Shown: positions 9,990-63,057 of the stretch, in pieces | Numbering within the stretch: the first letter of the stretch is position 1 | How the letters are laid out: every line of letters begins with the position of its first letter | NCBI RefSeq assembly: GCF_035582795.1 | Contig: NW_027445651.1 | Location: 430,970 to 494,969 of the forward strand | Length of the DNA: 64,000 bases | Direction: 5' to 3' | Source: Mycteria americana | Lineage: Eukaryota > Chordata > Aves > Ciconiiformes > Ciconiidae | Position numbers and translations under genes: made by a program | Notes under the pieces: model-generated | The model's database searches: none | Told to the model about the DNA's origin: nothing | What the model saw: only the letters and a program-made list of their open reading frames with translations

Positions 9990-10670
9990 CACGCGCTATT
10001 GCTGTGCCGATCCCCCTCCCCTTTGGCTCCTTCAGGGCAGCAGCGTCCCCGTGGCCGAGGTGCCCATGCCGGGGACAGCCTCTGCCCGCACTCCCGCGCA
10101 TCCAGTGTCGCTGCGGCCAGCTTCGCTCGGGCCGCTCTCTGCCGCGGCACGGCGTTCCTGCTGGCCCCAGCCGCTGTTCCCGGGCCGCTGCCGGCCTTTC
10201 ACGGGCCGCTCGGCCGGCGGTACCGGCTGCAAGGGCAGCACCAGCCTGAGGGGCTCGGGAAGGGTTCGGTGTGCTTTCGGGGTGCCTTGTCCCAGGGTTT
10301 CCTGAGCTACGGCAGCGCCGGGTCCCCCCGCGACGGCGGCTCGTCCCGCCCCAGTCTGCGCCGGGCAGCGCGGGCGGACCAGGGCTCGGCAGCGCCGCGC
10401 TCTCCGGCCCGCTCTGCTCCCGGCCCGCCCGCCCCGGCCCCGCCGCCAGCGCAGGGCGCAGGGCTCAGCCCCGGGGCGGAGCTGGCAGCACCGGGAGGAG
10501 AAGAGGCGGCGGAGAGGAGGCGCCGCGGCCGGCGCAGAGAGCGGGGCTGGCGGGGGACAGCGAAGTGTGGACGGCGGCGCGGCGGGATGCGGCGGTACCG
10601 GGGCGCAGGACTGGCGGGGCTGGCCGCGGTGCTCCTGGGTGCGTGGGGCTGGCGGCGGTGAAGGGGGGGC
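9990..10670. promoter_or_regulatory. CpG-rich island at V1 leader/promoter
   Basis: GC content and CpG density rise sharply from about 9990 to 10670, ending just after the V1 leader exon. The long open frames here on both strands are a GC effect. The region is repeated at about 42190-42880. Confidence 0.6.
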
Positions 10671-11462
10671 GGGGATGATCCTGGGGTTGTCCCCGCTCAT
10701 TCCTGGAGGCTTCAGACGCCTTTGGCTTCTTCACGGACCTCTGCTCCCAAACCATCCCCCCGTCCATCCCTCCCTCCGCTACCATCCCACATTCCCTCAG
10801 AAAACTCATTGCTCTATTCTTTGTCCAAACCTCCCTGTTTCCTTCCTTTCCTCCGTGTCTTTCCATATAACTCATGCAGTCATTCCTTCCCTCTTGCTGC
10901 TTTCTTTCTTGCCTTTGCCCCTCTTTTTTTCTTCAGTGACTCCACCCTTCCAGCTACCATTCAGGCATTCATCTCTCCACCAATTATTAATGGACACTTC
11001 CATTAGTGCACATGCTGACATCCTCTGGAAACTCTTCTCCTCATCATCTCTGGCTGCTGTTCCTGACAGCTGTTCCTGACGGCTTCTGCGGGATTTGTTC
11101 TGGGAAACAAGAGGCAGTGCTGGGCAGAAGGCAGGTTTTGACGATTAATTGTTCTTTTTGTCCTTGGCAGTGGCTGCGGGCAGAGCCCAGGTGCAGCAGG
11201 ACATGTCGGCAGAGACCACCGAAGGCACCAGCATCAGCATCAATTGCTCACACCCCAACATACAGTCTTACGACTTCATCCACTGGTACCGGCAACTCCC
11301 GGGCCGAGGCCCCAAGTTCCTCGTGAGCAGTAACAAAGGGTCCAAAGAGCTGCCGGACCCGCCGGGGCGGCTGTCGGTGGCGGCAGACCGCCGGTCCAGC
11401 TCCCTGTGGCTCGCCGGGCCCCGGCGCGGGGACGCGGCGGTGTATTACTGCGCCGTGGGAGA
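10587..11462 (+). CDS. TRAV: TCR alpha/delta V segment V1 (family A), two exons
   Basis: Leader exon 10587-10638 starts MRRYRGAGLAGLAAVLL, a hydrophobic signal peptide, and ends at donor G/GTGCGT. The acceptor TTGGCAG/TG precedes exon 2 at 11171-11462. Phase-1 splicing gives VAAGRA followed by mature QVQQDMSAE. The V-domain hallmarks are present: first Cys in SINCS, Trp in IHWYRQ, and YYCAV with the second Cys at 11449-11451 (mature residue 88). No stop occurs. A 23-bp-spacer RSS follows directly. The product is the variable domain of a T-cell receptor chain after V(D)J joining. CAV is usual for alpha, but delta use cannot be excluded. It is nearly identical to V2 (42797-43672) except at the CDRs. 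Confidence 0.9.
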
Positions 11463-11501
11463 CACGGCGAGAGGAGCCGGGGCTGCGGCCGGGCACGAAC
11501 C
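11463..11501 (+). promoter_or_regulatory. 23-RSS of V1
   Basis: Heptamer CACGGCG (11463-11469), 23-base spacer (11470-11492), nonamer GCACGAACC (11493-11501). The spacing is exactly that of a V-side 23-RSS. The first three heptamer bases CAC and most of the nonamer core fit consensus; CACGGCG and the spacer are unusually CpG-rich. Confidence 0.85.
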
Positions 11502-11554: not shown

Positions 11555-11573
11555 GGCCCGCCAGGGGGCGCTG
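11555..11573 (+). promoter_or_regulatory. CTCF-like motif 3' of V1 RSS
   Basis: GGCCCGCCAGGGGGCGCTG closely fits the vertebrate CTCF core (CCACCAGGGGGCGC type). It lies 53 bp beyond the V1 nonamer. The same motif lies 3' of V2 and in a relic at 21896-21914. Confidence 0.75.
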
Positions 11574-12300: not shown

Positions 12301-13358
12301 GTGCTCCTCAGGGTCCATGCTGGCCTGAGAGCTCCAAGCTCCTGCCCCAAACTAATCTCCACCTGGCTGTCCCCAGGCCTCAGGAATTCTGCTGCAGGGC
12401 AAGGGACAGGGAGTCTTCTCTGCCTGGGTTTTGCATCCACTCCTGATTTGCTTCCTGCAGCCTGTCCCAGAGCACAGCTGCTGATCTTCACTTTCTTCCA
12501 GGCAGCATGGGGCAGACCACTGTCACCCAGCAAGAAAGACAAATCACAGTAGAGCAGAGAGACACCTTCCAAACAACCTGCACATACCAGACCTCATACT
12601 TTCAGGGCTTGCTCTGATACCAGTGTAGTCTAACAGCATAGTCTAACAGGAGCTGGTGGAAGGCCAAGGCTTAGGAAAAGCTGATAAGGGGCATTCAGGC
12701 TGGAAAGCGGAACGTCTAAACAAGAATTACTATCCTTGGGAGTAAAGCACATCCTGGAGAAATATGTAAGCTAATTAAGATGTTTTGGGAACAATCTGAA
12801 ACTACTAGTAGGAGTGTGAGAAGAAGCACCCTCACTCAAACTATCCCCATTATAATACTAAAAGTCACACCCCTTGAGCTGGAGACCCCGGCCCAAGCAG
12901 AGACCCCTCACCTTTGAGCATGCGCAGAATATTAAAGTAGCACTGTAGCTTTAAGCTGCAATAAGAGAAATGTAGACCGATAGAAAACTGCTTTGTGTAA
13001 TGACTTATGCATATGCATAACTAGACTGAATAAATACTGTACCTGTATGACCAAAACTTTGTGCTGGCTTTGTGGAGCTACGACCTAGCACCCATCTCTG
13101 CGCAGACGTGAAATAAAATACCTCTGCCCTGTGTGTATATTGGCATCTCGCACACGGGGTAAACAACCTCACACTTGTGGGATAACACCAGCAGAGGAAA
13201 GGACAAGTTCCCCGGCCTGGCTCATATCAGCCAGCAGCTGGCTCCAAGCACACCGGCCATCTCACCATGTTGCTGAACACCACAGGGAAGTACAGCCTCC
13301 TGCGGGTGGAGGAAGTCGAGCTGTCTGACAGTGCCTTGTTCCTCTGTGCTGTGCAAGA
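12301..13358 (+). pseudogene. TRAV: TCR V pseudogene V5 (family B), split by a solo LTR
   Basis: From about 12301 the sequence matches the 3' part of the V4 intron (51735-51925), followed by an acceptor at 12500-12501 and a V exon beginning 12502. It reads like V3/V4 (TVTQQE..., CTYQTS) until the conserved Trp codon, which is TGA (12615-12617). At 12624 a 564-bp solo LTR is inserted. The V exon resumes at 13188 (CAGCAGAGGAAAGGACAAG) and runs to ALFLCAVQD. The leader exon is missing: 5' of 12300 is family-A flank. With no leader, a nonsense codon and an insertion it cannot be expressed, although its RSS is intact. Confidence 0.85.
12624..13187 (+). mobile_element. Solo LTR inserted in V5
   Basis: The insert begins TGTAGTCTAACAG and ends GGGATAACA (TG...CA). 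It is flanked by the 4-bp direct repeat CCAG (12620-12623 and 13188-13191), a target-site duplication. Two AATAAA-type signals occur at about 13029 and 13111, giving the probable orientation. It differs from the TGTCGTGG LTRs and from the provirus LTRs in this window. Confidence 0.8.
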
Positions 13359-13397
13359 CACTGTGGTGCAGGGAGCTCCTTGGCTGTGCAACAAGCC
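13359..13397 (+). promoter_or_regulatory. 23-RSS of pseudogene V5
   Basis: Heptamer CACTGTG (13359-13365, a canonical form), 23-base spacer, nonamer CAACAAGCC (13389-13397). The spacer has one base fewer than the homologous stretch after V3/V4. The RSS looks usable although the V segment is dead. Confidence 0.7.
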
Positions 13398-14663: not shown

Positions 14664-14995
14664 TGTCACCAAAATCGGAAATCAAACTCCTTAACACCAA
14701 CGTAGTATTAAGAAGCAGGCATTCTTTACTACGGTGCCAGATGCACGGGGGATCGGTCCACCTAGCGTGTATACCGCAGGTTACATCAACCAAAACTTAT
14801 ATTGTCCGATTACATACATATACATCAGATTTCCTGAAGTGATCAGGCATATTCATTCTATTTCCCAGAACTAATTCTCATTTTTGCATGGTCATTACGC
14901 ATGTGTCCTTGAACTCCGAGGAGCTTCCGTGGGGGTCTGTGGTGGTCCTTGGGGGTCATACATGTGTGTCCTTTAGTTGACCCATTCTTCTTTAA
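14664..14995 (-). repeat. 3' LTR of provirus, truncated in U3
   Basis: It matches 18689-19018 of the 5' LTR with few differences. At about 14995 it passes directly into the env TM tail, so the outer ~330 bp of U3 and the polypurine tract region are absent. The env frame runs on into the LTR. Confidence 0.8.
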
Positions 14996-15247
14996 ACATT
15001 GATAAACCAAACAAATCATCAAAACAACTGTAATCAAAATGATTAGTGTCTGTACCAACTCAGTTATCTCTCCTTTAAGAGAAAATCCAAAAGGTCCCAA
15101 AATTTGGCCTGACCAATTTGTTTGCATTTCACTCCTTAAACCATGAGTGTGCTGTGCCACCCTCTTTGTATCATCTATTTGTGCATTCAAAGCAGCTGTA
15201 ACATTTGGGATGTGCACACAGCAATCTTGATTCCTGTAAATCCACAA
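14996..15247 (-). pseudogene. Retroviral env transmembrane subunit fragment
   Basis: A CC pair near the start resembles the end of the CX6CC motif of gammaretroviral-type TM subunits. It is followed by a coil-like segment and a strongly hydrophobic span (LIILITVVLMICLVY) that would be the membrane anchor. The surface subunit and fusion region upstream are missing; the sequence before it belongs to a different, RNase H-side frame. It is a non-functional remnant. Confidence 0.7.
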
Positions 15248-15539
15248 TCATCTCTTCAATTCCCCCACGTGTTTCTCTTTTTTTTTCTCGCTATTTTTAT
15301 CATTATTTGTGGGGTAGCTATGACTTGCTGGGTGGGTGTTACTCACCATCCATCCTCATTTTCTACTGCTCTCAACTGTTCTGCCAATGCATTACTGCTA
15401 CTTCCTTGGGCTGCTGGATGTCCTGAAGGAGTTGAAGAATTTCTTCCTTGTATTTAATGGGCAATCCTTGAGCTGCCAGCAGTCCTCTTTCCTTCCAGAT
15501 AGCTCCATGTCTGTGAATCTGCTTTCTGTGCTGATGTAT

Positions 15540-17535
15540 TCACAGGGAGGGCTTCAGCTTTCATCACTTGGGTGGTGATAACCACTGCATACCCTGCCAT
15601 TTGTTTTCCATCTCAGACAAAGCTGCTTCCATCTGTTAACAGCTCCAAATCAGCATTAGGCAGCGGTTCGTCCGTCAGGTCCTGTCTGCTAGAATATACC
15701 TGCTCAATAGTTTGCAAACAATCATGGTGTAAAGACTCACCCACTTCCAAGCTCAAAAACATTGCTGGATTCACTGCTGTTGTAGTTTTAAGTTCCACAT
15801 CGTCCTGTTCCAAGCGAGTGACCTGGTATTTGAGCATGCGGCTCGGGGACAGCCATTGCCCCCCTTTTTGCTCCAAGACAGAAATTACCATATGTGGGAC
15901 ACAAACCGTAATTTCCTGCCCCATGGTTAGTTTCCTTGCTTCTTGGATTAAGAGTACAGTTGCTGCCACAGCTCACAAACATCCAGGCCATCCCTTGCTG
16001 ACATTATCCAATTGCTTAGAAAAATACCCAACGGCCCGTTTCCAAGTTCTTAATTTTTGAGTCAGCACGCCCAAAGCAAGATGTTATCGCTCATGTACAA
16101 ACAATTCAAAAGGCTTTGCTAAATCTGGGAGTCCTAACGCAGGTGTGGACATCAAAGCCTTCTTCAGATTTTTAAAAGCTGTCTGACACTCAGGTGTCCA
16201 CAACAGGTGATCCTCCTGGGATCCTTTCAAAGCTGCATAATTGAGGATCCACCATTGACACCACCTGACCATACCCAAAAATGTCCGCAATTCCTGTATC
16301 ATTCTGGGTTCTGGAACTTCACAAATTGCTTCCTTTCTGCCTGCTCCCAATCTTCTTTGTCCTTGTGAAATTTCAAAGCCTAAATATATCACAGTCTCTT
16401 TCCCAATCTGGGCCTTGCTTTTTGATACTCAGTATCCTGCTTGTCCCAAAAAATTCAACAAGCTGATGGTGACTTGTAAACAGTCTTCCTGAGTCTCTGC
16501 TGCTATCAGGATGTCATCTACATACTGCAATATTATTCCATCTGAATTTTCTTTTTTCCCACACTTCCAATTCCTTTGCCAACTGATTACCAAATATTGT
16601 AGGACTATTTTTGAATCCTTGAGGTAGCACCATCCAGGTGAGTTGGGTCTTGCGTCCAGTGGTGGGGCTTTCCCATTCAAAGGCAAACATTGCCTGGCTA
16701 TCTTTGTCTAGAGGTATGCAGAAGAAAGCATCCTTGAGATCAAGTACAGTAAACCACTTATGTTTTTCTTTTAAAGACCTCAGCAAGGTATATGGGTTAG
16801 CTACTACTGGGTGAATGTCTTGAACAATCTGATTGATGGCTCTTAAATCTTGAACTAACCCATATTCCTTGCGATTCTGCTTTTTCACTGGCAATATTGG
16901 GGTGTTATATTCTGATTCACACTCTATCAATAATCCATCATTCAAAAATTTTGTTATTAATTCTTCCAACCCCTTTCTAGCTTCCCACTTAATAGGATAC
17001 TGGTTTTGTCTTACTGGTTTGCTTCCAGGTTTTAGAACAACTTTTACTGGTTCCGCCAATTTAGACCGACCTGGGATTCCACTTGCCCATACCAAGGGTG
17101 TTACTGTATCCTCCACTTCTGCAGGAATTTCTTCCTTCAGTCTTGGTGTGTTCTGTAACATTAAAATTCTCGCTTCCACAGCGTTTGATTCAGGTATTAA
17201 CAGCTGAATCTCCCCATTTAAAAAAAAAAAATTATTTTGTGCATTCAATTTACTCAATATACCTCTTCCCAACAAAGACGATGGACATTCTGGCATATAC
17301 AAAAATTGATGAGTTACCCATTGCTTTCCCAATTTGAATTTCGAAGGTTGTAAAAATGGCAGGTTTTCCTTCTGCCCTGTCGCCCCAAAAACACTTACAG
17401 TTTTGTGACTAAACCCCCTTTACATATATTTACTACTGAATATGCTGCCCCTGTATCAACTAAAAATTCTACTTCATCATTCCCCAGCTTTAATGTAACC
17501 AGGTGTTCAGCTGGGGTTGACTCCCCCGGTCTCCG
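15540..17535 (-). pseudogene. Retroviral pol remnant (protease, RT, RNase H)
   Basis: Going 5' to 3' on the - strand: protease with LVDTGA near 17450; RT with LPQGFKNSPT near 16610 and the YVDD catalytic box near 16515; connection region 16084-16392; RNase H with ELLTDGSSF near 15625. The motifs fit gammaretrovirus-like RT. A stop just after the protease active-site region and several frameshifts break the frame. No integrase (HHCC or DDE) was found; sequence jumps from RNase H to env TM. Confidence 0.8.
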
Positions 17536-18173
17536 TCAGTCCTCATCATTCAGAGTCATCAGCTTAATTGCCTGTAGCGAAAGATCCAATTCTCTCACTT
17601 TGGGACATTCCCTTTTCCAATGCCCCCTCTCCTTACAAACAGCACACCGACCTTCTGCCAACCGGGGAGGTCTAAACGGAGGTGCTGCTCCTCCTGGTGG
17701 TCCTCCTCTTCCCCTTCCCCTACCTATTCCTGCTTTCCCTCCTCCTCCTTTCCACATTTCAAACACCTTTTCCCAATGCTACAGGCAGAGCAGCATCATC
17801 TTAAACTCTTATTCCTTCCCTGTTTTTTTCCAAAGTCAATACCATAGAATCTTGCAGGATAATCCCACACTGGTTTTGACACTCTGGATGATTTCTCAAA
17901 GCGAAAAATAAATACCTCATAAGGTATTTCATCTCATTTACCCTCCCACCTACAAACCAACATTAATTGCAAGATGGTATTATACCTCAATGTACTATTC
18001 TTTGGCCAGTTTTCCCCACTATCCAAAGTATACAGTGGCCACCAATGATTACAATATTCCATCAATTGTTTCTGAGTTAGTGGATCTCCTCCTAGAGTTT
18101 TCCAATGCCTTAATATACAGCCTAGAAGGGATGTACTCGGTTCCTCCCCTTCCAGCGACTGCTGACTTCCCAT
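17536..18173 (-). pseudogene. Retroviral gag remnant (matrix and nucleocapsid)
   Basis: It starts at ATG 18173 with MGSQQS, a glycine-2 myristoylation-type matrix start, and continues through a conserved DPLTQKQLMEYCN block. Most of capsid is missing. Near 17640 a single CCHC knuckle, CAVCKERGHWKREC (C-X2-C-X4-H-X4-C), marks nucleocapsid, preceded by a Gly/Pro/Arg-rich stretch. One knuckle fits gammaretrovirus-type gag. Confidence 0.75.
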
Positions 18174-18666
18174 TATAAAATAATACAACACAAAACCATA
18201 GAGACTATATCCAAACACACAGCAAAGTCATAGCTCCAATATTCAGACCAAAATTCAAAAACCAATATGACAACACAAAACCATAAAAACTATATCCAAA
18301 CGCACAATAAATCCGTAGTTCCAATATCCAGACCAAAATTCAGAAACCAATAGCCAGCTGGGGACTCTAACCCCTTTGGGGACTCTAATCCCGACCTTTA
18401 GCCAGAGCTCCACAGGCTTTTGCCTAGCAGAGAGTAGCTACCTTAGGTACCTTTTTTAGCCCAACCCTGCGTAGCTTTCGCTGTGCCTTACAGGTAGGCA
18501 ACCAACCCTTGTTACCGGTATACTCAGAAAGAATGCCTTATTACCTTGTTCCAGGGGATCTTGCTCAGAATTCTTCGGTCTGGGGATCGGAGATTCTCCC
18601 CAAGAATCCCTTGGTGCCGGCTGGAGGTCCTGCAATTCCTCAGATCCGTTGAAATTCAGAAGCAGG

Positions 18667-18684
18667 GTCCCATCTGGGTTGCCA
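18667..18684 (-). other. Primer-binding site of provirus
   Basis: The - strand reads TGGCAACCCAGATGGGAC, four bases past the 5' LTR edge. From memory it is complementary at about 16 of 18 positions to the 3' end of a tRNA-Arg (CCT-type). The tRNA assignment is less certain than the location. Confidence 0.6.
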
Positions 18685-18688
18685 AAAC

Positions 18689-19346
18689 TGTCACCAAAAT
18701 CGGAAATCAAACTCCAGTCAAACTCCTTAACACCAACGTAGTATTAAGAAGCAGGCATTCTTTACTATGGTGCCAGATGCACGGGGGATCGGTCCACCTA
18801 GCGTGTATACCGCAGGTTACATCAACCAAAACTTATATTGTCCAATTACATACATATACATCAGATTTCCCAAAATGATCAGGCATAGTCATTCTATTTC
18901 CCAGAACTAATTCTCATTTTTGCATGGTCATTATGCATGTGTCCTTGAACTCCGAGGAGCTTCCGTGGGGGTTTCTGGTGGTCCTTGGTGGTCATACAGG
19001 TGTGTCCTTTAGTTGACCCCTTCTTCTGGACATGCGCAATATCACCTTGCTTATGTAACTTGCTTCCCTTCTTCATGGTGCATGGTCCCTAACAGTGATT
19101 TGGCACCCTTAACACAAACCAATTATTCTAACCACCCTCGACTCGTCGTCAAGATGGGCTGGGGCTGTACTGGGAACATAGCAAGATGTCCATACTACTC
19201 CTCATCCAATTCTCTTTGGGCATAGTAGCATATCCATAGCCACAGATGTACAAACACAACATTAAAGTATTGTCTACCCTGCTCCTATCTCTATGTTGCT
19301 TAGTTACAAAAGAACGAACTAATCATTTTGGTTACATCTGGTTACA
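18689..19346 (-). repeat. 5' LTR of provirus, full length
   Basis: It is 658 bp. Read on the - strand it starts TGTAACCAGATG and ends TTTTGGTGACA, giving TG...CA ends. It abuts GTAT at 19347-19350, matching GTAT at 14660-14663. Confidence 0.8.
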
Positions 19347-20784: not shown

Positions 20785-21040
20785 ATCAGGCTCCCCACCC
20801 ACAGGACATGCTCAAGAGGGCACTTCTAGGCAGAGACAAAACAAGGCAGGCCACTCTGGTGGGGTGGTTTGTGTCCCTGTTTGCAGGGAGGGGCTCAGCT
20901 GCTTCCAGCCCTGTAGTCCTCAGCCCTACACCCAGGCTCCTATCCATGAGGACCTCACACCCTGGTCTCTCCCTCCCTTTCTTCCTCCCTAGTTCTTCCC
21001 TCCCTGGCCCCCACACACCCACAAGTCCATTGGTCCCCAC
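20785..21040. other. Keratin flank remnant without keratin body
   Basis: The block ctccccacccacaggacatgctcaagagggc near 20790 resembles the keratin 3' flanks at 53315 and 34890. The following ggggctcagctgcttccagccctg...gaggac...tctctccctccc resembles the far 5' flank of K4 (54716-54810). The keratin gene that should lie between is absent, suggesting an internal deletion. Confidence 0.4.
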
Positions 21041-21732
21041 AGCCTCTTCACCTTGCAAAAGTGTCAGGCATTGGCTTTGGGCTGCAGATATGCACCCAGA
21101 GGGAGGCTCTCGTCCTGTTCTTTCCTGTTCCCAGGAAGTCAGTGGACACTCTCTCCAGCTCCTGAGCTCTGGGACTGGGATGGCTGCCACTGCCAGATGC
21201 CATCGCCGCTCAGCTGTCCCAGGCTAGGGATGTACCTGTGCAGACTTAGTCTTGCTGGGATTCTCCAGGCAGGCTTCCACTTTCTCCTCCTCTGCTGACA
21301 GAGTGGTTTTAGCCTTTTCCCACCTCTCCTTCTTTTGCTCCTGTCTCCTGGGCTGGGCTGGAAGAAGGGGAGGGTCAAATTCTGAAGTGTCAGCACTCCC
21401 GCTTCCTAGCAAACACAACTGCAAGCACAGGAGCTGTTTCCCAGATAACATCCAGCAGGGACGGTGCAGCAGTCCTGGGCAAACCTAGACAGTCACCGTA
21501 ACTTGCCCCTGTGGGATGTCTGAGCCAGCCCAGAGTTTCACTGCAGGTTTCAGTTGGACTCTTGTTCTCAGCCGTTGATATCACAAGCGAATGGAAGGAA
21601 TTGCACAGCCTTGTACAGGCAGATGCACAAGAAAAAATGCTCACGTCCACACACACAGGGTGCACACACATGTCCATCCCTAGGGTCACACAGCTGTGTG
21701 TGGTCACAAGCATACATGCACACAAATGCCCC

Positions 21733-21888: not shown

Positions 21889-22110
21889 CCGGCCAGGCCC
21901 GCCAGGGGGCGCTGCTGCTCTGCTCGCCGGGGCCACCTTGCCACACGCAGCCTCGTCCAGCCACGGGCCCCGGGGCAGTTCCCCTGCCCCCAGGCATTGT
22001 CATCAACATCAGCACTGGCACCGGCATCAAGCATCGGCGTTGGAATCGGCTTTGGGCTTCTTCTGAGCTTCTCCACTCTTTCCCCCCAAGGGGATCTCTT
22101 CCTGTACTCA
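21889..22110 (+). other. Family-A V 3' flank relic with no V segment
   Basis: The sequence aggcccgccagggggcgctgctgctc and the following GC-rich stretch match the 3' flank of V1 (11552-11650) and V2. The V exon and RSS that should precede it are gone, and a CR1 tail sits there instead. Confidence 0.65.
21896..21914 (+). promoter_or_regulatory. CTCF-like motif in V-less relic
   Basis: The same 19-base CTCF-like motif as 3' of V1 and V2 is retained without a visible change, although the V segment is lost. Confidence 0.7.
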
Positions 22111-24796: not shown

Positions 24797-26108
24797 ATGC
24801 ACCTCGGCTATCTCGTCCTCGCTGCCTTCCTTAGGCAACCACTGGGTAAGCATTGGCTTTGACTGGAGGCACTATTCCTCTTCCCCCCAGGAGACCCTCA
24901 CCCCCTCAACAGTTCTCTGCAGGGAGCTGCTCTTCAATTATGGGCAAATGTTGGGAAACATCAGATTGCAAGTGTAGTTTTGCACCTGCTTCCGCAAGGT
25001 GCTGTTACTGATAGAAAAGACAAGACGAGACCGAGAAGAAACAGCTCCTTTCCTGATCATCTTAGACTCCTTGCCTTCCTGTTCTCTTGCCAACCGTCCA
25101 CCTCTCTCTGCCTCTCTCTTCTGATCCATCTAGGCCCAGTGTTTCACAGACATATCATTGCAGAAGCTCTCTTCTATCTCTGCACTACACCTTTTCTGAC
25201 GCACAGGACTTTTGAAAGCTGATGCAGGCACAGGAAAGTTCTCTCATCGCACTCACATTGTTAGGGTGTCCCAGTGTCTCTCCTGGCTGGCACATGTCAT
25301 GCAGCATGCCCTGGCTATCCATTCCTCTGCATGTCAGCAATGCCAGGGCTTCCTTTTCCCTCCCCTCCCTTGACCTTGGAGCCTTCTGAGAGCACCGGGA
25401 ATGGGGAGCAGGGTGAAACTTCTCACAGGAGGTCCCAGGTCCCTCACACGGCTGCAGGTGTCCTGGACCCAGCACAGGAGGGCCAGGCACTGCAATCTCT
25501 TTCCTAGAGACTCTGGGCAGCAGGAGAGTCAGGATGGAAGACCTGGGTCATCTTCCACAGCTCTCACACAGCTTTCACACAGCTCTCTCTGGGGGTATCC
25601 CTGTGGGAGGCAACTGTCATTCTTGTGCTGTGGGATCCATGTTGAGCTGAGGTCTCAGAGCTCCTTCCCAAAGACACTCACCACCTTGCTGTTCCCATCT
25701 ATGGGGCTTTGGCTGCAGTACAAGGCACAGGGAGCCTTCTCTCTGACACTTTGCATCCCCTCTTGTTTTGCATCTCGGAGCCTTTCCTTGCACAGTCTCT
25801 GACCCTTGCTTTCTTCCAGGCACCATGGGGCAGATCACCGTCACCCAGCAAGAAGGACAAGTCACAGTAAAGGAGAGAGACACCTTCCAGACCACCTGCG
25901 CCTACCAGGTCTCTAACTTTTATGGCTTGTTCTGGTACCAGCAGAAGAAAGACCAAGCTCCCCAGCTGGTCTCATACCATGCAACAGCTGGCCCCAAGCG
26001 CAGCGGCCGTCTCACCACGTTGCTGAACACCACAGAGAAATACAGCCTTCTGCGGCTGGAGAAAGTCGAGCCCTCTGACAGTGCCTTGTACCTCTGTGCT
26101 GTGCAAGA
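24797..26108 (+). CDS. TRAV: TCR alpha/delta V segment V3 (family B), two exons
   Basis: Leader exon 24797-24845 encodes [16 protein letters not shown] and ends G/GTAAGC. Exon 2 is 25820-26108, after acceptor TTCTTCCAG. Spliced, it reads [14 protein letters not shown], then Cys in TTCAYQ, Trp in FWYQQKK, an FR3 with [19 protein letters not shown], and [10 protein letters not shown] with the second Cys. There is no stop. An RSS follows. Family B differs clearly from family A: it has YQQ rather than YRQ and YLCAVQD rather than YYCAV. Its nearest paralog here is V4, and V5 is a dead relative. The product is the variable domain of a TCR chain after rearrangement; alpha versus delta is unresolved. 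Confidence 0.9.
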
Positions 26109-26147
26109 CACCGTGGTGCAGGGAGCTTCCTTGGCTGTGCAACAAGC
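26109..26147 (+). promoter_or_regulatory. 23-RSS of V3
   Basis: Heptamer CACCGTG (26109-26115), 23-base spacer, nonamer GCAACAAGC (26139-26147; a one-base shift gives CAACAAGCC). It follows directly on the CAVQD-coding end. Confidence 0.75.
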
Positions 26148-29329: not shown

Positions 29330-30660
29330 TAAAGATTGAGGCACAGAAGGCATTCAGCACCTCAGCCTTTTCCATGTCCTGTGTTGTCAGGCTGTGCAGC
29401 ATCAGCGAAGGCCCACTCATTCAGCAGTGGGACCACATTTCCCTCAGCCTTCCTTTTGTCACCTGTGTCCTTACAGAAGCCCTTCTTGTTGCCATTGGCA
29501 TCCCTTGCCAGATTCAGTTCCACTTGAGCTTTGACTTTCCTAATCCCATCCCTGCATGCTTTGACAGTGTCTCTGTATTCCTCACAGGTTACCCATCATT
29601 GCTTCCATCTTCTGTATGCTTCCTTCTTGTGTTTTGGTTTTGCCAGGAACTCCTTGTTCATCCATACAGGCCTCCTGACATGCTTTCCTGACTTCCTCCT
29701 CATTGGGATGGACTGCTCTTGAGCTTGGGGGAGGTGGTCCTTCATGTGAAATGAACTTTCCTGGGCCCCTCTTGCCTGAAGGGTCATATCCCATGGCACT
29801 CTTCCAAGCACATCTTTAAAGAGACGGAATTCTGCTCTCCTGAAGTCCTGGGTTTTGAGCTTGCTATTTACCTTCCTCCCTCCCCTCAGGATCCTGAACT
29901 ACACCATCTCCTTGCCACTGCAGCCAAGGCTGCCTTTGATCTTCACATCCCCAACAAGCCCTTCCTTCTTGGTGCGTATGAGGTCCAGCAGAGCACCTGT
30001 CCTCCTTGGCTCCTCTGTCACTTGGGTGATGAAGCTGTCATCCATGCACTCCAGGAACCTCCTGGCTTGCTTATGTCCTGCTGAGTTTTCCCTCCAACAG
30101 ATACCGCAGTGGTTGACGTTCCCCATGAGGACCAGGGCCCATGAATGTGAAGCTGATCCTATCTGCCTGTAGAGGGCCTCATCTGCTCGTTTGTCCCGGT
30201 CAGGCCACCTATAGCAGACACCCAGTACAATGTCACCCTTACCTATATTCTCTTTCTTCCTTGCCCATAAGCCCACAGTTAGCTCATCACCCGTCCCCAG
30301 GCAGAGCTCCATGTACTCCAACTGCACTCCCACAGAAAGGGAAAGTCCCCATCCTCCTCTTCTCAGCCTGTCTTTCCGACATGGCCTATATCTCTCCATT
30401 GCAACACTCCAGAAACGGGAGCCATCCCACCCCATCTCCGTGATCCCAATGTGATCGTAGCCCTGCAACTGCACCCAGATCTCTAACTCCTTGTGTTTAT
30501 TCCCCATGCTGCGTGCATCAGTGTACAGGCACTTGACAGGGGCACCCCAGCATGTTGACTTCCTAGAAAGGGTTTTGGCAATTTCTCCACAATGATGCCT
30601 TGCAGGCACTTCCTTGCTTCCATGCAACTGCTAGGGGTGACCCCACTTCAGCCCTGTTTC
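29330..30660 (-). mobile_element. CR1 LINE, ORF2 endonuclease part
   Basis: Read on the - strand, a largely open frame (30627 to 29899) shows the CR1 endonuclease: CLYTDARSMGNKHKELE, GITEMGWDGS, GDIVLGVCYRWPD, ALVLMGNVNHCGICWRENSA, RRTGALLDLI and KGSLGCSGKEMVEFR. The catalytic D of the usual GDFNH is changed (GNVNH). RT-start text continues toward 29330. The copy is incomplete. Unit II has it at 56565-57800, with more divergence. Confidence 0.85.
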
Positions 30661-30769
30661 CTTCATCTTGTCCTCCCTACCTGGCACATCACCCCAGGCC
30701 CTTTGCTCATCACCTGTGTCCATCAGTCCCTCACAGGGCTGCTGGGTACTCTCTCCCTCCCCCATCATT

Positions 30770-31490
30770 CCTAGTTTATAAGCCCTCCTTATCAGGTCAG
30801 CCATCCTACTGGCAAAGCTAACTTGGCCCTGCTTGGTGAGGTGGATCCCACATCTCCTGGGCAGATGCTGCTCTGCAATCAGGTTCCCATGGTTGTAGGA
30901 CCTGACCCCCTGTCACCAACTCCAGTTCCACAGCCAGTTATTGACCTGCATTATCAGTGCTCTCCTCCTCACACCCTTTCCCCTCACCAGCAGGATTGAG
31001 GACAGCACTACCTGGACCCATGTGCCCTGGACTACTTCCCGTGGAGCTCTGTCATCACTTTTGATTCTGTCCAAGTTTCCCCTAGCATATCATTTGTGCC
31101 CATAAGGAATAACAGCAGGGGGTAGTGGTCAGAGAGCCGAGCAAGCTTTGGCAGTCCCTCCATAACATTCCAGATGTGGGCCCCTGGCAGGCAGCAAAGC
31201 TCTCTAGGTGACAGGCCAAGTTGGCATATCGGTGCCTCTGTCCCCTGTAGCAGAGAGTCACCCATAAGGATCACGCGCCGCTTCTTCCTGGTGGCCGTGC
31301 ATGGTTTAGGGTCAGGCGGACCAGATCCTTTGCTTCAAGGCACGTCTGGCTCCTCTTTAACTTTGAGGACGGTGAACCGATTTTGTAGTTGTAAGCCCTT
31401 AGGTGGAGCAGGAGCCTGCCGCTTGGTGCCAGAAGTCACCAGCTTCCATCCTGAGATTGTTCCCTGGGGATCTGCTTTTGAGGGCTTTAG
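30770..31490 (-). mobile_element. CR1 ORF1 remnant with SGNH-esterase-like domain
   Basis: The - strand frame 31274-31032 reads LMGDSLLQGTEAPICQ and later YPLLLFLMGTNDMLGE: a GDS block and a GTND block, as in SGNH hydrolases and the esterase domain of CR1 ORF1 proteins. It lies upstream of the ORF2 endonuclease on the same strand, as in an intact CR1. It is nearly identical at 57915-58640 and has a third, more diverged copy at 60440-61135. Confidence 0.65.
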
Positions 31491-31499
31491 AATCTATGA

Positions 31500-32709
31500 G
31501 TGGTGGTCACTTTTTAAGAACCACCTTTTAAAAGCACAGGAGCAGGCAATTCCATTGTGTTGTAAAGTAAGCAAGCAGGGCAGAAGACCAGCTTGGCTGA
31601 AGAGGGATCTCCTCATGGAACTCAAGAGGAAAATTGTACAATCTCTGGAAGCAAAGTCAGGCTTCACACGAAGATTACAGAGCTGTGGTTCGCATATGCA
31701 GGGAGAAGACAGAAAAGGCCAAAGCCGAACTAGAGTTGAGACTGGCCAGTGTTGTGTCAGACAACAGGAAGGGCTTTTTTAAGTATGTTAACAGCAAGAG
31801 GAGGTCTAAAGAAAACATTGGACCAATACTTGATGAAGATGGTCACCTGAGAAACAGGGATGAAGAAAAAAACAGAGACACTCAATGCTTTTTTTGCCTC
31901 ATTCTTTAATAATACTGATAGACCTTGGGCTGCCCGGTCCTCTGAGTTGGAGGACCATGACTGCAGGAACAGTGACTTTCCATTTGTGGACACTGAAATT
32001 GTAAGGGACCAGCTATATGAGCTGAATGTTCACAAGCCTGTGAGGCCAGATGGGATTCAGCCCAGAGTACTGAAGGAGCTGACAGATGTTACGGCAGGAC
32101 CTCTCTCCATCACCTACCAAACGTCTTGGGAGTCTGGGGAGGTCCCTGCTGACTGGAAGCTGGCCAATGTTATTCCAGTCTACATGAAGGGTGTGAGGGA
32201 TGTCCCAGGGAACTACAGACCTGTTTGTCTCATCTCGGTTCCTGGAAAAATTATGGAGAAGGTCATGCTGGGTGCTGTTGGAAGGCATTTAAAGGACAAT
32301 GCAATCATCAGGCACAGTTACATGGGTTTACAAAGGGAAAGTCCCGTGAAACTAATTTGATATCCTTCTATGATAAGGTCACCCACCCAGTGGAGGAAGG
32401 GAAGGTGGTGGATGTGGTTTTTCTGGATTTTAGTAAGGCTCTGCATACTGTCCCTTACAGCATCCTTCTGAACAAGGCGTCCAACTGTGAGATGACCAGG
32501 TACACAGTGCGATGGGTGAAGAACTGGCTGAACAGCAGGCTCAAAGGGTTGTAGTGAATGGGGCTACACCTGGCTGGCGACCCATCACCTGCGGTGTTCC
32601 TCAGGGCTCAATTCTAGGGCCAGTGCTGTTCAATATCAGTGATCTGGATGCAGGAGTTGAACGTACCATGAGCAGTTTTGTTGATGATACCAGACTGGGA
32701 GGTGCCTAA
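31500..32709 (+). mobile_element. CR1 LINE, ORF2 reverse transcriptase part
   Basis: On the + strand, in three or four frames, CR1 RT is recognisable: [66 protein letters not shown] and [12 protein letters not shown] (the usual FADD box altered to FVDD). It lies head-to-head with the - strand CR1 ORF1 piece at 30770-31490. Frameshifts make it non-functional. Confidence 0.85.
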
Positions 32710-32754
32710 AACCCAGTGATGCACCCTGTGAAGTTTACTGTTAAAACGAAAATA

Positions 32755-32845
32755 TTCATAGGATCATGGACTCATAGGATGGTTTAGGTTGGGAGAGACC
32801 TTTAAAAGGTTGTCTAGTCCAACCCCTCCTGCCATGGGGGTTTAT
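32755..32845 (-). mobile_element. Short CR1 3' tail
   Basis: It is the reverse complement of the common CR1 end: ataggatcatggactcatagg, tttaggttgggagagacc, tctagtccaacccctcctgccatgg. Confidence 0.8.
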
Positions 32846-32963
32846 ATTCATAAAATCTTTAAACTTTGCTGTCTGTAGTGTCCATTTGAGAAACATGTTG
32901 GGGTGGGGTGGGCTGAGCTTAAAGAGCACACACTAAGCCGAGCAGTTGGGTTGTAAACTTTAT

Positions 32964-33462
32964 TTACAGAATACGTTTATGAAAATGGCTGCAAGAGATG
33001 CTGGTCTGGGTCTTCTGAAACTTATTTTGAGTAGCTGTGGTCATGGAGAAAGCTCCATCTTCATCTTTTACAAAATGCATCAGCATCTGATCATTTTGTA
33101 CTAGACTGTTAGAATACAGTTTTAAAATCTGTTCAAAAGATAATTCCTCATAACGGTGATGTAGGAAAAAGAGAAAGTGGTATCCACAGGCCATGGAGGA
33201 GGGGATGCTGCAGTTGCTTCCTCTGGAAAGCAATATCTGTAGCATTATGCTTTAAAAAGGCCATGATGGTCTCAGAAAAGAGAGCACTGTTTGGAGGGTA
33301 ACGACGTGAGTCAAAAAACTCCGTGTCATTCTGGTCTGCCAGGAAAATTGTTAGCCGATGCTCTCCAGGCTAGTTATGAGGATGCGTATTAACCATCGCG
33401 CTCACTGGTCTTGGGGAAACATGGGCCCTAGGGAGCCAGTTGCTCGGGTAAGCACCTAGAAA
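32964..33462 (-). pseudogene. Polinton/Maverick-type cysteine protease relic
   Basis: On the - strand from 33462, a broken frame resembles the adenovirus-type protease carried by Polintons and adintovirus-like elements. An NTHPHN block is followed by PGEH (the catalytic-His position, with the usual following Trp replaced by Arg), then EFFDS. After a frame change comes MACGYHFLFFLHHR, with the catalytic-Cys position, and a C-terminal QNDQMLMHFVKD. An in-frame TAG lies at 33370-33372 and a frameshift near 33228. In these elements the enzyme matures capsid proteins. This copy is inactive. Only the C-terminal half is in unit II (60116-60397). Confidence 0.65.
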
Positions 33463-40318: not shown

Positions 40319-40702
40319 CTGCCCCTGCCCTCCCTGAGCCCTACACACCCATGATGGGCACATGTGTCCTCACATCCCCTTTGCCACAACACAACTTTTA
40401 GGCATTGTACTGAGACTGCAGAGAGGCAGCTGAAGGGAGGCTCTCAGCCTCCTCACTCCCAACCACAGGAAATCAGTGGCTGCTGTTTGCAGCCCCTGAG
40501 CTCAGAGGCAGCTCTGGGAAGCTGGTCCATCTCCTGGGTCAGGGCCCTGCAGCTTTCCCAGACTGCACCTGGCACAGTGCACGCTTATTCTTGCTGAGGT
40601 GTCCTTGCTGTAGCACAGGGAGACAGTGATCTGCCCATGCAGAGCCACTGAGCACTCTTAGCCCGGGTGAGACTCTGGGCAGCAGTGGCAGAGCAGTGGG
40701 AT

Positions 40703-42189: not shown

Positions 42190-42880
42190 GCCACGCGCTA
42201 TTGCTGTGCCGATCCCCCTCCCCTTTGGCTCCTTCAGGGCAGCAGCGTCCCCGTGGCCGAGGTGCCCATGCCGGGGACAGCCTCTGCCCGCACTCCCGCG
42301 CACCCAGTGTCGCTGCGGGCAGCTCCGCTCCGGCCGCTCTCTGCCGCGGCGCCGCCTTCCTGCTGGCCCCGCGCTCCCAGCCGCTGTTCCCCGGCCGCTG
42401 CCAGCCTTTCACGGGCCGCTCGGCCGGCGGTACCGGCTGCAAGGGCAGCACCAGCCTGAGGGGCTCGGGAAGGGGTCGGTGTGCTTTCGGGCTGCCTTGT
42501 CCCAGGGTTTCCTGAGCTACGGCAGCGCCGGGTCCCCCCGCGACGGCGGCTCGTCCCGCCCCAGTCTGCGCCGGGCAGTGCGGGCGGACCAGGGCTCGGC
42601 AGCGCCGCGCTCCCCGGCCCGCTCTGCTCCCGGCACGCCCGCCCCGGCCCCGCCGCCAGCGCAGGGCGCAGGGCTCAGCCCCGGGGCGGAGCTGGCAGCA
42701 CCGGGAGGAGAAGAGGCAGCGGAGAGGAGGCGCCGCGGCCGGAGCAGAGAGCGGGGCTGGCGGGGGACAGCGAAGTGTGGACGGCGGCGCGGCGGGATGC
42801 GGCGGTACCGGGGCGCAGGGCTGGCGGGGCTGGCCGCGGTGCTCCTGGGTGCGTGGGGCTGGCGGCGGTGAAGGGGGGGC
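42190..42880. promoter_or_regulatory. CpG-rich island at V2 leader/promoter
   Basis: Duplicate of the island at 9990-10670. It overlaps the leader exon of V2. Confidence 0.6.
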
Positions 42881-43672
42881 GGGGCTGATCCTGGGGTGGT
42901 CCCCGCTGATCCCTCGAGGCTTCAGACCCCTCTGACTTCTTCACGGACCTCTGCTGCCGAATCATCCCCCCGTCCATCCCTCCCTCTGCTGCCATCCCAC
43001 ATTCCCTCAGAAAACTCATTGCTCTATTCTTTGTCCAAACCTCCCTGTTTCCTTCCTTTCCTCCGTGTCTTTCCGTATAACTCATGCAGTCATTCCTTCC
43101 CTCTTGCTGCTTTCTTTCTTGCCTTTGCCCCCCTTTTTTTCTTCAGTGACTCCACCCTTCCAGCTACCATTCAGGCATTCATCTCTCCACCAATTATTAA
43201 TGGACACTTCCATTAGTGCACATGCTGACATCCTCTGGAAACTCTTCTCCTCATCATCTCTGACTGCTGTTCCTGACAGCTGTTCCTGACGGCTTCTGCG
43301 GGATTTGTTCTGGGAAACAAGAGGCAGTGCTGGGCAGAAGGCAGGTTTTGACGATTAATTCTTCTTTTTCTCCTTGGCAGTGGCTGCGGGCAGAGCCCAG
43401 GTGCAGCAGGACATGTCGGCAGAGACCACCGAGGGCACCAGCATCAGCATCAATTGCTCACACTCCGACATAAAGACCACCGACTTCATCCACTGGTACC
43501 GGCAGTTCCCGGGCCGAGGCCCCACGTTCCTCGTGAGCAGTCACAAAGGGTCCAAAGAGCTGCCGGACCCGCCGGGGCGGCTGTCGGTGGCGGCAGACCG
43601 CCGGTCCAGCTCCCTGTGGCTCGCCCGGCCCCGGCGCGGGGACGCGGCGGTGTATTACTGCGCCGTGGCAGA
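42797..43672 (+). CDS. TRAV: TCR alpha/delta V segment V2 (family A), two exons
   Basis: Leader exon 42797-42848 encodes MRRYRGAGLAGLAAVLL with donor G/GTGCGT. Exon 2 is 43381-43672 after TTGGCAG. The mature domain starts QVQQDMSAE and has the first Cys in SINCS, IHWYRQFPG, and YYCAV before the RSS. There is no stop. Compared with V1, exon 2 differs at ten codons that change the residue and two that do not. Five changes lie in or beside CDR1 (HPNIQSYD versus HSDIKTTD), one is at CDR2 (N to H), and one is in the last CAV-x-D position. Donor, acceptor and RSS are unchanged. It should be usable in rearrangement. Confidence 0.9.
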
Positions 43673-43711
43673 CACGGCGAGAGGAGCCGGGGCTGCGGCC
43701 GGGCACGAACC
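43673..43711 (+). promoter_or_regulatory. 23-RSS of V2
   Basis: CACGGCG (43673-43679), 23-base spacer, GCACGAACC (43703-43711), identical to the V1 RSS. Confidence 0.85.
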
Positions 43712-43764: not shown

Positions 43765-43783
43765 GGCCCGCCAGGGGGCGCTG
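43765..43783 (+). promoter_or_regulatory. CTCF-like motif 3' of V2 RSS
   Basis: GGCCCGCCAGGGGGCGCTG, 53 bp beyond the nonamer, as at V1. The sequence between RSS and motif differs at several positions between V1 and V2, whereas the motif itself does not. Confidence 0.75.
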
Positions 43784-51034: not shown

Positions 51035-52214
51035 ATGCACCGCGGATATCTCGTCCTCACTGCCTTCCTGGGACAATTGCTGGGTAAGTCCTGGTTTGTC
51101 ATCACACGTACTTCTCCCAAGGAAACCCTTGCCAGCCTTATCAGGATCATGCAGGCAACTACTTTTGAATTACAGGAAAATGCTGGGAAATGTCACCTCA
51201 CATTTGTGGGTTTGCACTGGTTCTCTCAAGACACTCTTACTGTTTGAGAGAGGAGAGAGACCTCAGACCCCTTCTCCTGCCTTTCTCTCCCCTTTAATCT
51301 ATCTCCCTCTGCCTCTCTCTTCTGATCCACCTGCTGTCACCATAAGAGATCTCAGCTGTCTCTGCTGTCCCACATTTCTCTACTTCCAATGCAAATTAGC
51401 AGATCCTCTCAAAGCTGCAACAGGAATGTTGAATGTGTCCCCTGGCTGTGCCTCCTTGCTGGCTGCCATGGCCTCCAGTTTCCTCCTGGTTGTCAACACA
51501 GCCAGGGCTCCCTCTTTCCAACATTCAGCTCAGCACTGCATGGATTCAGGGAGCTAGGAGCCCTCTGAGATGACAGGGATGGGGAAGCAGGATGAATCTT
51601 TTTGCTGTAGCTCCCTGGGCTCCTCAACCTGCTGGAGGGGTGCTGGTCCCAGCACACAAAGGTCAGGGATGACAGGCTGTTCCCTGGTCCTCTGGACAGT
51701 AGGAGCAGGAGCAGGGAGGAGGAGCAGGGACAAAGCACAGCTCTCCTCAGGGTCCACACTGTGCTGAGAGCTCCTGCCCAAAACTGCTCTCCGCCTGGCT
51801 GTCCCCTCAGGATTTTCCTGCAGGGCAAGGGACAGGGAGCCTTCTCTGCCTGGGTTTTGCATCCACTCCTGGTTTGCTTCCCAGAGCCTTTCCCTGCAGA
51901 GCTGCTGACCTTCCCTTTCTTCCAGGCACCATGGGGCAAATCACCGTCACCCAGCAAGAAGGACAGATCACGGTGAAGCAGAGAGACACCTTCCAAACAG
52001 CCTGCACATACCAGACCTCGTACTTTCAGAGCTTGCTCTGGTACCAGCAGAGGAAAGGACAAGCTCCCCAGCTAATCCTGTTTCAGGCAGCATCTGGGTC
52101 CAAGCACAGCGGCCGTCTCACCATGTTGCTGAACACCACAGAGAAATACAGCCTTCTGCGGCTGGAGGAAGTCGAGCTCTCTGACAGTGCCTTGTACCTC
52201 TGTGCTGTGCAAGA
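51035..52214 (+). CDS. TRAV: TCR alpha/delta V segment V4 (family B), two exons
   Basis: Leader exon 51035-51083 encodes [16 protein letters not shown] and ends G/GTAAGT. Exon 2 is 51926-52214 after TTCTTCCAG. It reads [14 protein letters not shown], Cys in TACTYQ, Trp in [20 protein letters not shown] and [10 protein letters not shown]. There is no stop and an RSS follows. It is paralogous to V3, with differences concentrated in the CDR1 region (TSYFQS versus VSNFYG) and around CDR2 (LFQAAS versus SYHATA), and to the pseudogene V5. It should be rearrangeable; alpha versus delta use is unresolved. Confidence 0.9.
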
Positions 52215-52253
52215 CACCGTGGTGCAGGGAGCTTCCTTGGCTGTGCAACAAGC
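52215..52253 (+). promoter_or_regulatory. 23-RSS of V4
   Basis: Heptamer CACCGTG (52215-52221), 23-base spacer, nonamer GCAACAAGC (52245-52253), identical to the V3 RSS. Confidence 0.75.
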
Positions 52254-56564: not shown

Positions 56565-57800
56565 TAGTAAAAATTGAGGCACAGAAGGCATTCAGCCCCT
56601 AAGCCTTTTCAATGCTACCTGTCCTTACAGAAGCCTTGTTGCCATTGACATCCCTCACCAGATTCAGTTCCACTTGAGCTTTGACTTTCCTAATCCCATC
56701 CCTGCATGCTTTGACAGTGTCTCTGTATTCCTCGCAGGTTACCCATCCTTGTTTCCATCTCCTTTATGCTTCCTTCTTGTGTTTTGGTTTTGCCAGGAGC
56801 TCCTTGTTCATCCATACAGGCCTCCTGGCATATTTGCCTGGCTTTCTGTACGTTGAGATGGACTGCTTTTGAGCTTGGAGGAGGTGATCCTTGGCTATTA
56901 ACCAGCTTTCTTGGGCCCCTCTGGCCTCCAGGGCCTTATCCCATGGCACTCTCCAAGCAGATCTTTAAAGAGACGGAAGTCGGCTGTCCTGAAGTCCTGG
57001 GTTCTGAGCTTGCTATTTACCTTCCTCCCTCCCCTCAGGATCCTGAACTCCACCATCTCCTTGCCACTGCAGCCAAGGCTGCCTTTGATCTTCACATCCC
57101 CAACAAGCCCTTCCTTCTTGGTGTGTATGAGGTCCAGCAGAGCACCTGTCCTCCTTGGCTCCTCTGTCACTTGGGTGATGAAGCTGTCATCCATGCACTC
57201 CAGGAACCTCCTGGCTTGCTTATGTCCTGCTGTGTTTTCCCTCCAACAGATACCGCAGTGGTTGAAGTTCCCCATGAGGACCAGGGCCTGTGAATGTGAG
57301 GCTGCTCCTCTCTGCCTGTAGAGGGTCTCATCCGCTGGTTGTTCCTGGTCAGGCAGCCTGTATCAGACACTCACTACAATGTCACCTTTACCTGTCTTCT
57401 CTTTAATGCTTACCCATAAGCTCTCAGTTGGCACATCATCCACCCCCAGGCAGAGCTCCATGCACTCCAACTGCTCTCTCACAGAAAGGGAAAGTCCCCA
57501 TCCTCCTCTTCTCTGCCTGTCCTTCTGAAACAGCCTCTATCCCTCCAGTGCAACATGCCAGTCACAGGAGCCATACCACACCGTCTCTGTGATCCCAACA
57601 TGATCGTGGCCCTGCAACTGCACCCAGATCTCTAACTCCTCGTGTTTATTCCCCATACTGCGTGCATTAGTGTACAGGCACTTGACAGGGGCACCCCAGC
57701 ATGTTGACTTCCTAGAAAGGGTTTTGGCAATTTCTCCACAATGATGCCTTGCAGGCACTTCCTTGCTTCCATGCAACTGCTAGGGGTGACCCCACTTCAG
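56565..57800 (-). mobile_element. CR1 LINE, ORF2 endonuclease part, unit II
   Basis: Counterpart of 29330-30660, with a GNFNHCGICWREN block (57245-57275), LLDLIHTKKEGLVGD and CLYTNARSMGNKHEELE. It is more decayed than its unit I copy between about 57300 and 57600. Confidence 0.85.
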
Positions 57801-57914
57801 CCCTGTTTCCTTCATCTTGTCCTCCCTTCCTGGCACATCACCCCAGGCCCTTTGCTCATCACCTGTGTCCATCAGTCCCTCACAGGGCTGCTGGGTACTC
57901 TCTCCCTCCCCCAT

Positions 57915-58640
57915 CATTCCTAGTTTATAAGCCCTCCTTATCAGGTCAGCCATCCTACTGGCAAAGCTAACTTGGCCCTGCTTGGTGAGGTGGATCCCAC
58001 ATCTCCTGGGCAGATGCTGCTCTGCAATCAGGTTCCCATGGTTGTAGGACCCGACCCCCTGTCACCAACTCCAGTTCCACAGCCAGTTATTGACCTGCAT
58101 TATCAGTGCTCTCCTCCTCACACCCTTTCCCCTCACCAGCAGGATTGAGGACAGCACTACCTGGACCCATGTGCCCTGGACTACTTCCCGTGGAGCTCTG
58201 TCATCACTTTTGATTCTGTCCAAGTTTCCCCTAGCATATCATTTGTGCCCATAAGGAATAACAGCAGGGGGTAGTGGTCAGAGAGCCGAGCAAGCTTTGG
58301 CAGTCCCTCCATAACATTCCAGATGTGGGCCCCTGGCAGGCAGCAAAGCTCTCTAGGTGACAGGCCAAGTTGGCATATCGGTGCCTCTGTCCCCTGTAGC
58401 AGAGAGTCACCCATAAGGATCACGCGCCGCTTCTTCCTGGTGGCCGTGCATGGTTTAGGGTCAGGCGGACCAGATCCTTTGCTTCAAGGCACGTCTGGCT
58501 CCTCTTTAACTTTGAGGACGGTGAACCGATTTTGTAGTTGTAAGCCCTTAGGTGGAGCAGGAGCCTGCCGCTTGGTGCCAGAAGTCACCAGCTTCCATCC
58601 TGAGATTGTTCCCTGGGGATCTGCTTTTGAGGGCTTTAGA
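57915..58640 (-). mobile_element. CR1 ORF1 (esterase-like) remnant, unit II
   Basis: Same as 30770-31490, with GDSLLQGTEAPICQ and FLMGTND blocks unchanged. Confidence 0.65.
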
Positions 58641-58649
58641 ATCTATGAG

Positions 58650-59861: not shown

Positions 59862-59904
59862 AACTCAGTGATGCACCCTGTGAAGTTTACTGTTAAAACG
59901 AAAA

Positions 59905-59997
59905 TATTCATAGGATCATGGACTCATAGGATGGTTTAGGTTGGGAGGGACCTTTAAAAGGTTGTCTAGTCCAACCCCTCCTGCCATGGGGGTTTAT
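59905..59997 (-). mobile_element. Short CR1 3' tail, unit II
   Basis: Same as 32755-32845. Confidence 0.8.
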
Positions 59998-60115
59998 ATT
60001 CATAAAATCTTTAAACTTTGCTGTCTGTAGTGTCCATTTGAGAAATATGTTGGGGTGGGGTGGGCTGAGCTTAAAGAGCACACACTAAGCCGAGCAGTTG
60101 GGTTGTAAACTTTAT

Positions 60116-60397
60116 TTACAGAATACATTTATGAAAATGGCTGCAAGAGATGCTGGTCTGGGTCTTCTGAAACTTATTTTGAGTAGCTGTGGTCATGGAG
60201 AAAGCTCCATCTTCATCTTTTACAAAATGCATCAGCATCTGATCATTTTGTACTAGACTGTTAGAATACAGTTTTAAAATCTGTTCAAAAGATAATCCCT
60301 CGTAACGGTGATGTAGGAAAAAGAGAGAGTGGTATCCACAGGCCATGGAGGAGGGGATGCTGCAGTTGCTTCCTCTGGAAAGCAATATCTGTAGCAT
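60116..60397 (-). pseudogene. Polinton-type protease relic, C-terminal half
   Basis: It carries MACGYHSLFFLHHR and QNDQMLMHFVKD, as in the unit I relic. At about 60408 homology stops abruptly, so the His-containing N-terminal half is absent. Confidence 0.65.
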
Positions 60398-60439
60398 TAT
60401 GCTTTAAAAAGCAAAAAGCATAAGTTTAAAAACTTTCCC

Positions 60440-63048: not shown

Positions 63049-63057
63049 ATGAACAGA

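Follow-up and report, generated by a model that had tools for sequence, protein, structure and literature searches.

A predicted CTCF-binding element beside the RSS of bird TRAV1 segments: an IgH-like layout with looser spacing in a TCR alpha/delta locus

Does a V family of a bird TCR locus use the RSS-adjacent CTCF layout known from mouse Igh? The question is raised by a 64,000-nt stretch of Mycteria americana DNA (the window), in which a sequence-only reading had noticed a 19-mer that stands unchanged at two V segments, V1 and V2, 53 bp beyond the nonamer of each, and had proposed such a layout. An exact search of the window for this 19-mer, GGCCCGCCAGGGGGCGCTG, finds three copies, starting at 11555, 21896 and 43765, all on the + strand and thus in the orientation of transcription of the V segments. 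Copy 1 (11555-11573) lies 3' of V1 and copy 2 (43765-43783) 3' of V2, each at a measured 53 bp past the nonamer, whereas copy 3 (21896-21914), which that reading had missed, is accompanied by neither a TRAV1 exon nor an RSS. In shuffled sequences (n=100), the mean number of matches to the 19-mer allowing up to three mismatches was 0.03. Scored with a CTCF matrix (after MA0139.1), the 19-mer reaches 16.2 bits (p 1.7e-6 at even base composition, 1e-5 at local composition), so the low score proposed earlier as counting against a CTCF site was not what we obtained. With both strands scanned, the three copies are the top three matches of the window, and the 19-mer differs from the published CTCF consensus CCASYAGRKGGCRS by one mismatch. 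The 2 kb preceding each TRAV1 leader contain no match of at least 10 bits. The motif is CTCF-like, a predicted CTCF-binding element.

V1 and V2, the family A of the sequence-only reading, are TRAV1 segments. On the + strand, V1 has an inferred leader exon (10587-10638), whose joined translation reads MRRYRGAGLAGLAAVLLVAAGRAQVQQ as in the Mycteria model P0001, an intron (10639-11170), a V exon (11171-11462) whose translation has a QVQQ start and bird TRAV1-type matches, and a 23-RSS (11463-11501) consisting of CACGGCG, a 23-bp spacer and GCACGAACC. V2, on the same strand, has an inferred leader exon (42797-42848), likewise placed by the joined translation, a V exon (43381-43672; translation 90% identical to V1 by tblastn) and a 23-RSS (43673-43711) identical to that of V1 at 39/39 bases. 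The QVQQ start, which the chicken TCR paper PMC10972964 gives as a mark of chicken TRAV1, goes together with the 23-RSS and a V-set domain; PF07686 is among the database matches, as are models of rearranged TCR alpha chains, P0036 for example. The Mycteria TRAV1 models P0001 and P0242 match V1 and V2 only partially. The stork TRAV1 leader appears to occupy its own exon (10587-11170 and 42797-43380); for chicken TRAV1, leader and V are described in a single exon (PMC10972964). With two and three mismatches to the RSS consensus, the heptamer and nonamer of TRAV1 make a weak RSS, and a search of the window for the exact-base consensus RSS gave no match because both V families have divergent RSSs. 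V1 and V2 do not differ anywhere in the TRAV1 RSS, the 23-bp spacer included, and many of the bird proteins described below show a GAGAAAG-like peptide where the spacer is translated; the TRAV1 RSS thus appears divergent yet well kept. No J or C segment was found in the window with two V-J-C models as queries, so the placing of J and C is our inference; under deletional joining, the motif would face them.

V1 and V2 lie within a 6.1-kb stretch of 95.6% identity and are recent duplicates. As had been noticed earlier, the bases between RSS and motif vary (44/53 agree) while the motif does not (19/19), and the following ~200 bp agree at 154/196 aligned bases. Because the duplication is young, the identity of the motif in V1 and V2 is weak evidence taken alone, and we set it aside as proof of selection.

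A comparison across species was made indirectly. Gene models of bird TRAV1 proteins often read through the RSS, and for this reason several of the segments carry wrong names in public databases, such as 'CASP-like protein 4A2' (Aquila, P0017) or 'E3 ubiquitin-protein ligase TRIM33-like' (Molothrus, P0104). We searched the tails of such proteins for the peptide that the motif would encode. The set comprised 146 TRAV1 proteins, namely 120 listed of 216 matches and 26 new ones among 120 listed of 217, of which 115 were readable, with the RSS visible and at least 14 residues beyond it. Among these listed matches, sequence compatible with the motif was present in 82 of the 115, spread over 14 of 16 named bird orders, so that the absence in related species proposed earlier as counting against the layout was not what these tails showed. 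The peptide occurs in three codon phases (GPARGRC-like in 46 proteins, GPPGGAA-like in 32, ARQGAL-like in 4), a recurrence that points to the DNA rather than to a protein. The peptide patterns were defined post hoc, after the proteins had been inspected; shuffled tails carried them in at most 6 of 115 (300 trials), and among distinct tails the figure was 68/100 against at most 8 in shuffles. Codon degeneracy masks bases in the other birds, and proteins from one genus are not independent. With these limits, an exact match to CCASYAGRKGGCRS is compatible with 51/98 proteins and with 32/56 genera or unnamed entries, a number reached by 1/400 scrambled consensuses, while tail shuffles (200) gave at most 14. 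Allowing one mismatch, the stork sequence's own level, gives 48/56, a count that 18/400 scrambles equal and that hardly discriminates. Likelihood ratios for single translated tails were too weak for a decision (best corrected p 0.045; in translated V1 and V2 the top-scoring position is not the motif) and were dropped.

The pattern is missing in 33 of the 115 readable proteins. The models of owls (0/5), curlew (0/4) and crane (Grus, 0/3) appear to splice away ahead of the site; swans (0/4) each show a near miss; parrots carry the pattern in 1/5, with an altered core in most; kiwi gives 0/1, and the remaining misses are single. With kiwi as query, two further kiwi models were found, neither readable beyond the RSS. 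Searches of viral contigs and prokaryote genome contigs for the bird DNA gave no relative. Where the third residue fixes column 6 of the motif (one codon phase), G is present in 11/12 proteins of named non-passerine Neoaves, giving a CpG in the CCG, and in the same phase all 27 passerine proteins have Ser, which fits A at this column. Methylation may therefore control the site in non-passerine Neoaves.

Among readable birds, the distance from nonamer to 19-mer ranges from 10 to 74 bp, mostly from 20 to 53. It is 53 bp in 13 of the 18 motif-bearing proteins of non-passerine Neoaves (47, 51, 52, 52 and 74 in the rest), 46 bp in ducks and geese (7/7), 31-38 bp in galliforms, 44 bp in crows, manakins and antbirds (10 proteins), and 20 bp in other songbirds (19 proteins), with 10 bp in one. 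Judged from these translated tails, the distance to the RSS seems to drift between clades while the motif persists; together with the V1/V2 counts, this changing gap length marks the motif as better kept than the bases that separate it from the RSS.

How far does this arrangement resemble known ones? Like the CTCF sites that accompany the RSSs of IGHV segments in mouse and human (PMC6746451, PMC6439775), the stork motif matches the CTCF consensus, lies 3' of a V 23-RSS, points the way the V segment is transcribed, is kept better than the intervening bases and is confined to some V families. Its 53 bp at V1 and V2 also fall within the 100 bp of the RSS reported for CTCF sites in several mouse VH families (Table 2 of PMC5859386). 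The distance past the nonamer differs, being 17-19 bp in mouse and 19 or 48 bp in human (PMC6746451); neither the 53 bp of the stork nor the clade-dependent gaps of other birds agree with a fixed distance of about 18 bp as in mouse, and we therefore class the bird site as a variant and not as a plain member. Moreover, the bird site belongs to a different locus (TCR alpha/delta) and a different class, and the stork motif has a CpG in its CCG that the mouse and human VH motifs lack, according to PMC6746451. The V region of mouse TCR alpha/delta is the same locus type and also has many CTCF sites among its V segments, but, according to PMC5859386 and PMC10516640, many of these lie upstream of the V promoter, others are intergenic (PMC5859386), and both orientations occur, whereas the stork site is 3' of the RSS and not upstream of the V promoter. 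The CTCF site of the globin insulator shares the CCG start and the GGGGGC run (CCGCTAGGGGGCAG vs CCGCCAGGGGGCGC) but does not adjoin an RSS. On sequence grounds, the layout of the bird TRAV1 site, though found in a TCR alpha/delta locus, appears IgH-like, with a looser spacing. Among the open-licence papers listed, judged by titles and the openings of abstracts, none dealt with CTCF next to the RSSs of bird V segments, and the word CTCF is absent from the chicken TCR paper PMC10972964 and the duck TCR paper PMC5278385.

We consider it fairly probable that this RSS-adjacent predicted CTCF element acts as a cohesin loop-extrusion brake that keeps the V segment near the recombination centre. In this mechanism, CTCF would bind the 19-mer in thymocytes, and cohesin would halt there as chromatin is reeled past the downstream recombination centre. 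The halted cohesin would keep the weak TRAV1 RSS, and perhaps that of the paired TRAV2, within reach, and the use of TRAV1, of the TRAV2 downstream of each copy, or of both would rise. Comparable effects are known from mouse, where mutation of the VH81X CTCF site lowered VH81X use and repair of the VH5-1 site made VH5-1 the most used segment (PMC6439775). Inversion of the VH81X site lowered its use only modestly in the same work, and the orientation of the stork motif is therefore weak support. Chicken points another way: according to PMC10972964, TRAV2 makes up more than 90% of spleen alpha chains and TRAV1 is found there very rarely, although a TRAV segment is used by roughly one delta chain in four or five. 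This TRAV2 dominance speaks against a simple model in which CTCF boosts its neighbour and does not fit a plain copy of mouse IgH; because of these usage data, an anchor for the whole cassette, or a function in the joining of delta or early alpha chains, is a good alternative. The proposal of an avian TCR V family with the mouse-Igh layout is thus upheld in part: matrix score, orientation and recurrence favour it, and the lack of a fixed spacing, the V-less third copy and the rarity of chicken TRAV1 do not.

The first of these alternatives depends on the other V family of the window and on the third copy. What had been called family B is TRAV2, with three segments on the + strand. Downstream of V1 lies a TRAV2 pseudogene (12504-13377), recovered by tblastn in two pieces (12504-12623 and 13150-13377) and split by an insertion of ~0.56 kb (12624-13186). 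A second segment lies downstream of copy 3 (25822-26133 by tblastn, with the RSS CACCGTG at 26109, the end of the match), and a third downstream of copy 2 (51928-52239, RSS CACCGTG at 52215), with 79% tblastn identity to the other TRAV2. The second segment, as query, is 100% identical to the Mycteria model P0122 over 87% of its length, in keeping with wood stork or a close relative as the source of the window. Two 3.8-kb copies with reverse-transcriptase-like frames (29466-33259 and 56620-60411, 96.7% identical) belong to a large duplication around the TRAV2 segments.

The claim that family-B segments lack the motif held in the window and in other birds. Within 1 kb 3' of the TRAV2 RSSs of this window there is no CTCF-matrix match of at least 10 bits, the best reaching 9.4-9.8 bits. 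Among 118 new TRAV2 proteins, 54 passed the tail pattern and 15 of these were rearranged or spliced, leaving 39 readable; the motif peptide occurs in 0/54 and in 0/39 of the readable tails. An exact CCASYAGRKGGCRS-compatible match was also found in 0/54, a count that, against a shuffle mean of 0.66, is by itself no depletion.

The window holds further elements. The fourth-best CTCF-matrix match (17685, minus strand, 14.5 bits) lies within 14682-19027, where LTR-like direct repeats (14682-14991 and 18718-19027, 96% identical) flank minus-strand frames that look retroviral by eye; this element appears to be an old endogenous retrovirus. At the 3' end, 62001-64000 shows strong purine skew (GC skew 0.30, AT skew 0.44), and long low-complexity frames on both strands at ~63004-63495 belong to a simple purine-rich repeat.

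Copy 3 begins 12 bp after a tail that we take to be CR1-like, and tblastn finds neither a TRAV1 exon nor any other V segment at it. Its surroundings are nevertheless related to those of the other copies. Around it, identity to V2 is 87% over a 52-bp block and identity to V1 is 74% over a 99-bp block; 3' of it, to just before TRAV2, pieces of 58-77% identity to the V2 cassette follow in the same order save for one inverted piece; and 5' of it 20995-21257 resembles 40325-40596 at 65%, a match that may be a repeat. To judge by these alignments, copy 3 probably sits in a paralogous cassette, upstream of TRAV2. The odds that all 19 bases are kept by chance, taken as identity raised to the 19th power, come to 0.0003 at 65%, 0.004 at 75%, 0.011 at 79% and 0.054 at 86%; the TRAV2-containing blocks of the copy-3 and V2 cassettes are 86% identical, which leaves the cassette's age uncertain and the odds anywhere between ~0.0003 and 0.054. 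The 19/19 match beside no V exon is suggestive of upkeep of the motif without TRAV1.

It is accordingly conceivable, with a modest share of the likelihood, that the element serves the TRAV1-TRAV2 pair, and chiefly TRAV2, rather than the adjoining TRAV1. Along the window, each of the three motif copies is followed by one of the three TRAV2 segments, and copy 3, its TRAV1 lost, still precedes TRAV2. In chicken, TRAV1 and TRAV2 are repeatedly paired ~2 kb apart and many TRAV1 RSSs score low, as PMC10972964 reports, and TRAV2 dominance of spleen alpha chains is in keeping with such a role. The cassettes are only three, however, two of them related by duplication, and the distance from motif to TRAV2 varies from ~0.9 to 8 kb; the position of the motif within ~10-74 bp of the TRAV1 RSS in readable birds is not something a TRAV2-only role requires. 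In its boldest form, which we regard as doubtful, every bird TRAV1-TRAV2 cassette would contain one CTCF anchor of its own, predating the split of ducks, fowl and songbirds. TRAV1 with its poor RSS would mainly carry the anchor, the anchor would bring the neighbouring TRAV2 before the recombinase and thereby shape the TRAV2-dominated repertoire, and selection would keep the anchor alone once TRAV1 is lost.

That the motif is a leftover without function, whose copies stay similar through recent duplication, through gene conversion or because a CpG-rich flank changes slowly, seems unlikely to us. The close identity of V1 and V2 over 6.1 kb would follow from such descent, the nonamer-to-motif region is also similar among several non-passerine birds, and the TRAV1 V segment lies in a CpG-rich stretch (CpG observed/expected ~0.8). 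Against this, a compatible motif recurs across 14 of the 16 named orders despite length changes on its RSS side, and the 19/19 retention in copy 3 is suggestive of upkeep, though not conclusive. Quite improbable is a site for another GC-rich zinc-finger protein, INSM1- or Sp1-like: the stretch GCCAGGGGGCG looks like the INSM1 consensus, and CTCF was the sole matrix scored, but the full 19 bp fit CTCF and the exact CTCF consensus is admitted by those 51/98 bird proteins. A chance match in a GC-rich island (local GC around the site is 78%) is extremely improbable, since, given the local composition, a single strand of 400 bp is expected to hold only 0.004 matches of such score, and the recurrence in other birds would be left unexplained.

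In summary, the preferred reading remains a putative loop-extrusion brake beside TRAV1. If bound by CTCF, the element would extend the IgH-style, RSS-adjacent type of CTCF site to a TCR alpha/delta locus and to birds. This would suggest that loop brakes at the level of single V segments have separate origins, or are separately retained, in different antigen-receptor loci. The clade differences in spacing, together with the altered core seen in these parrot proteins, provide a natural experiment on RSS distance and motif strength, and the site provides a testable account of why chicken alpha chains favour TRAV2, a bias so far unexplained.
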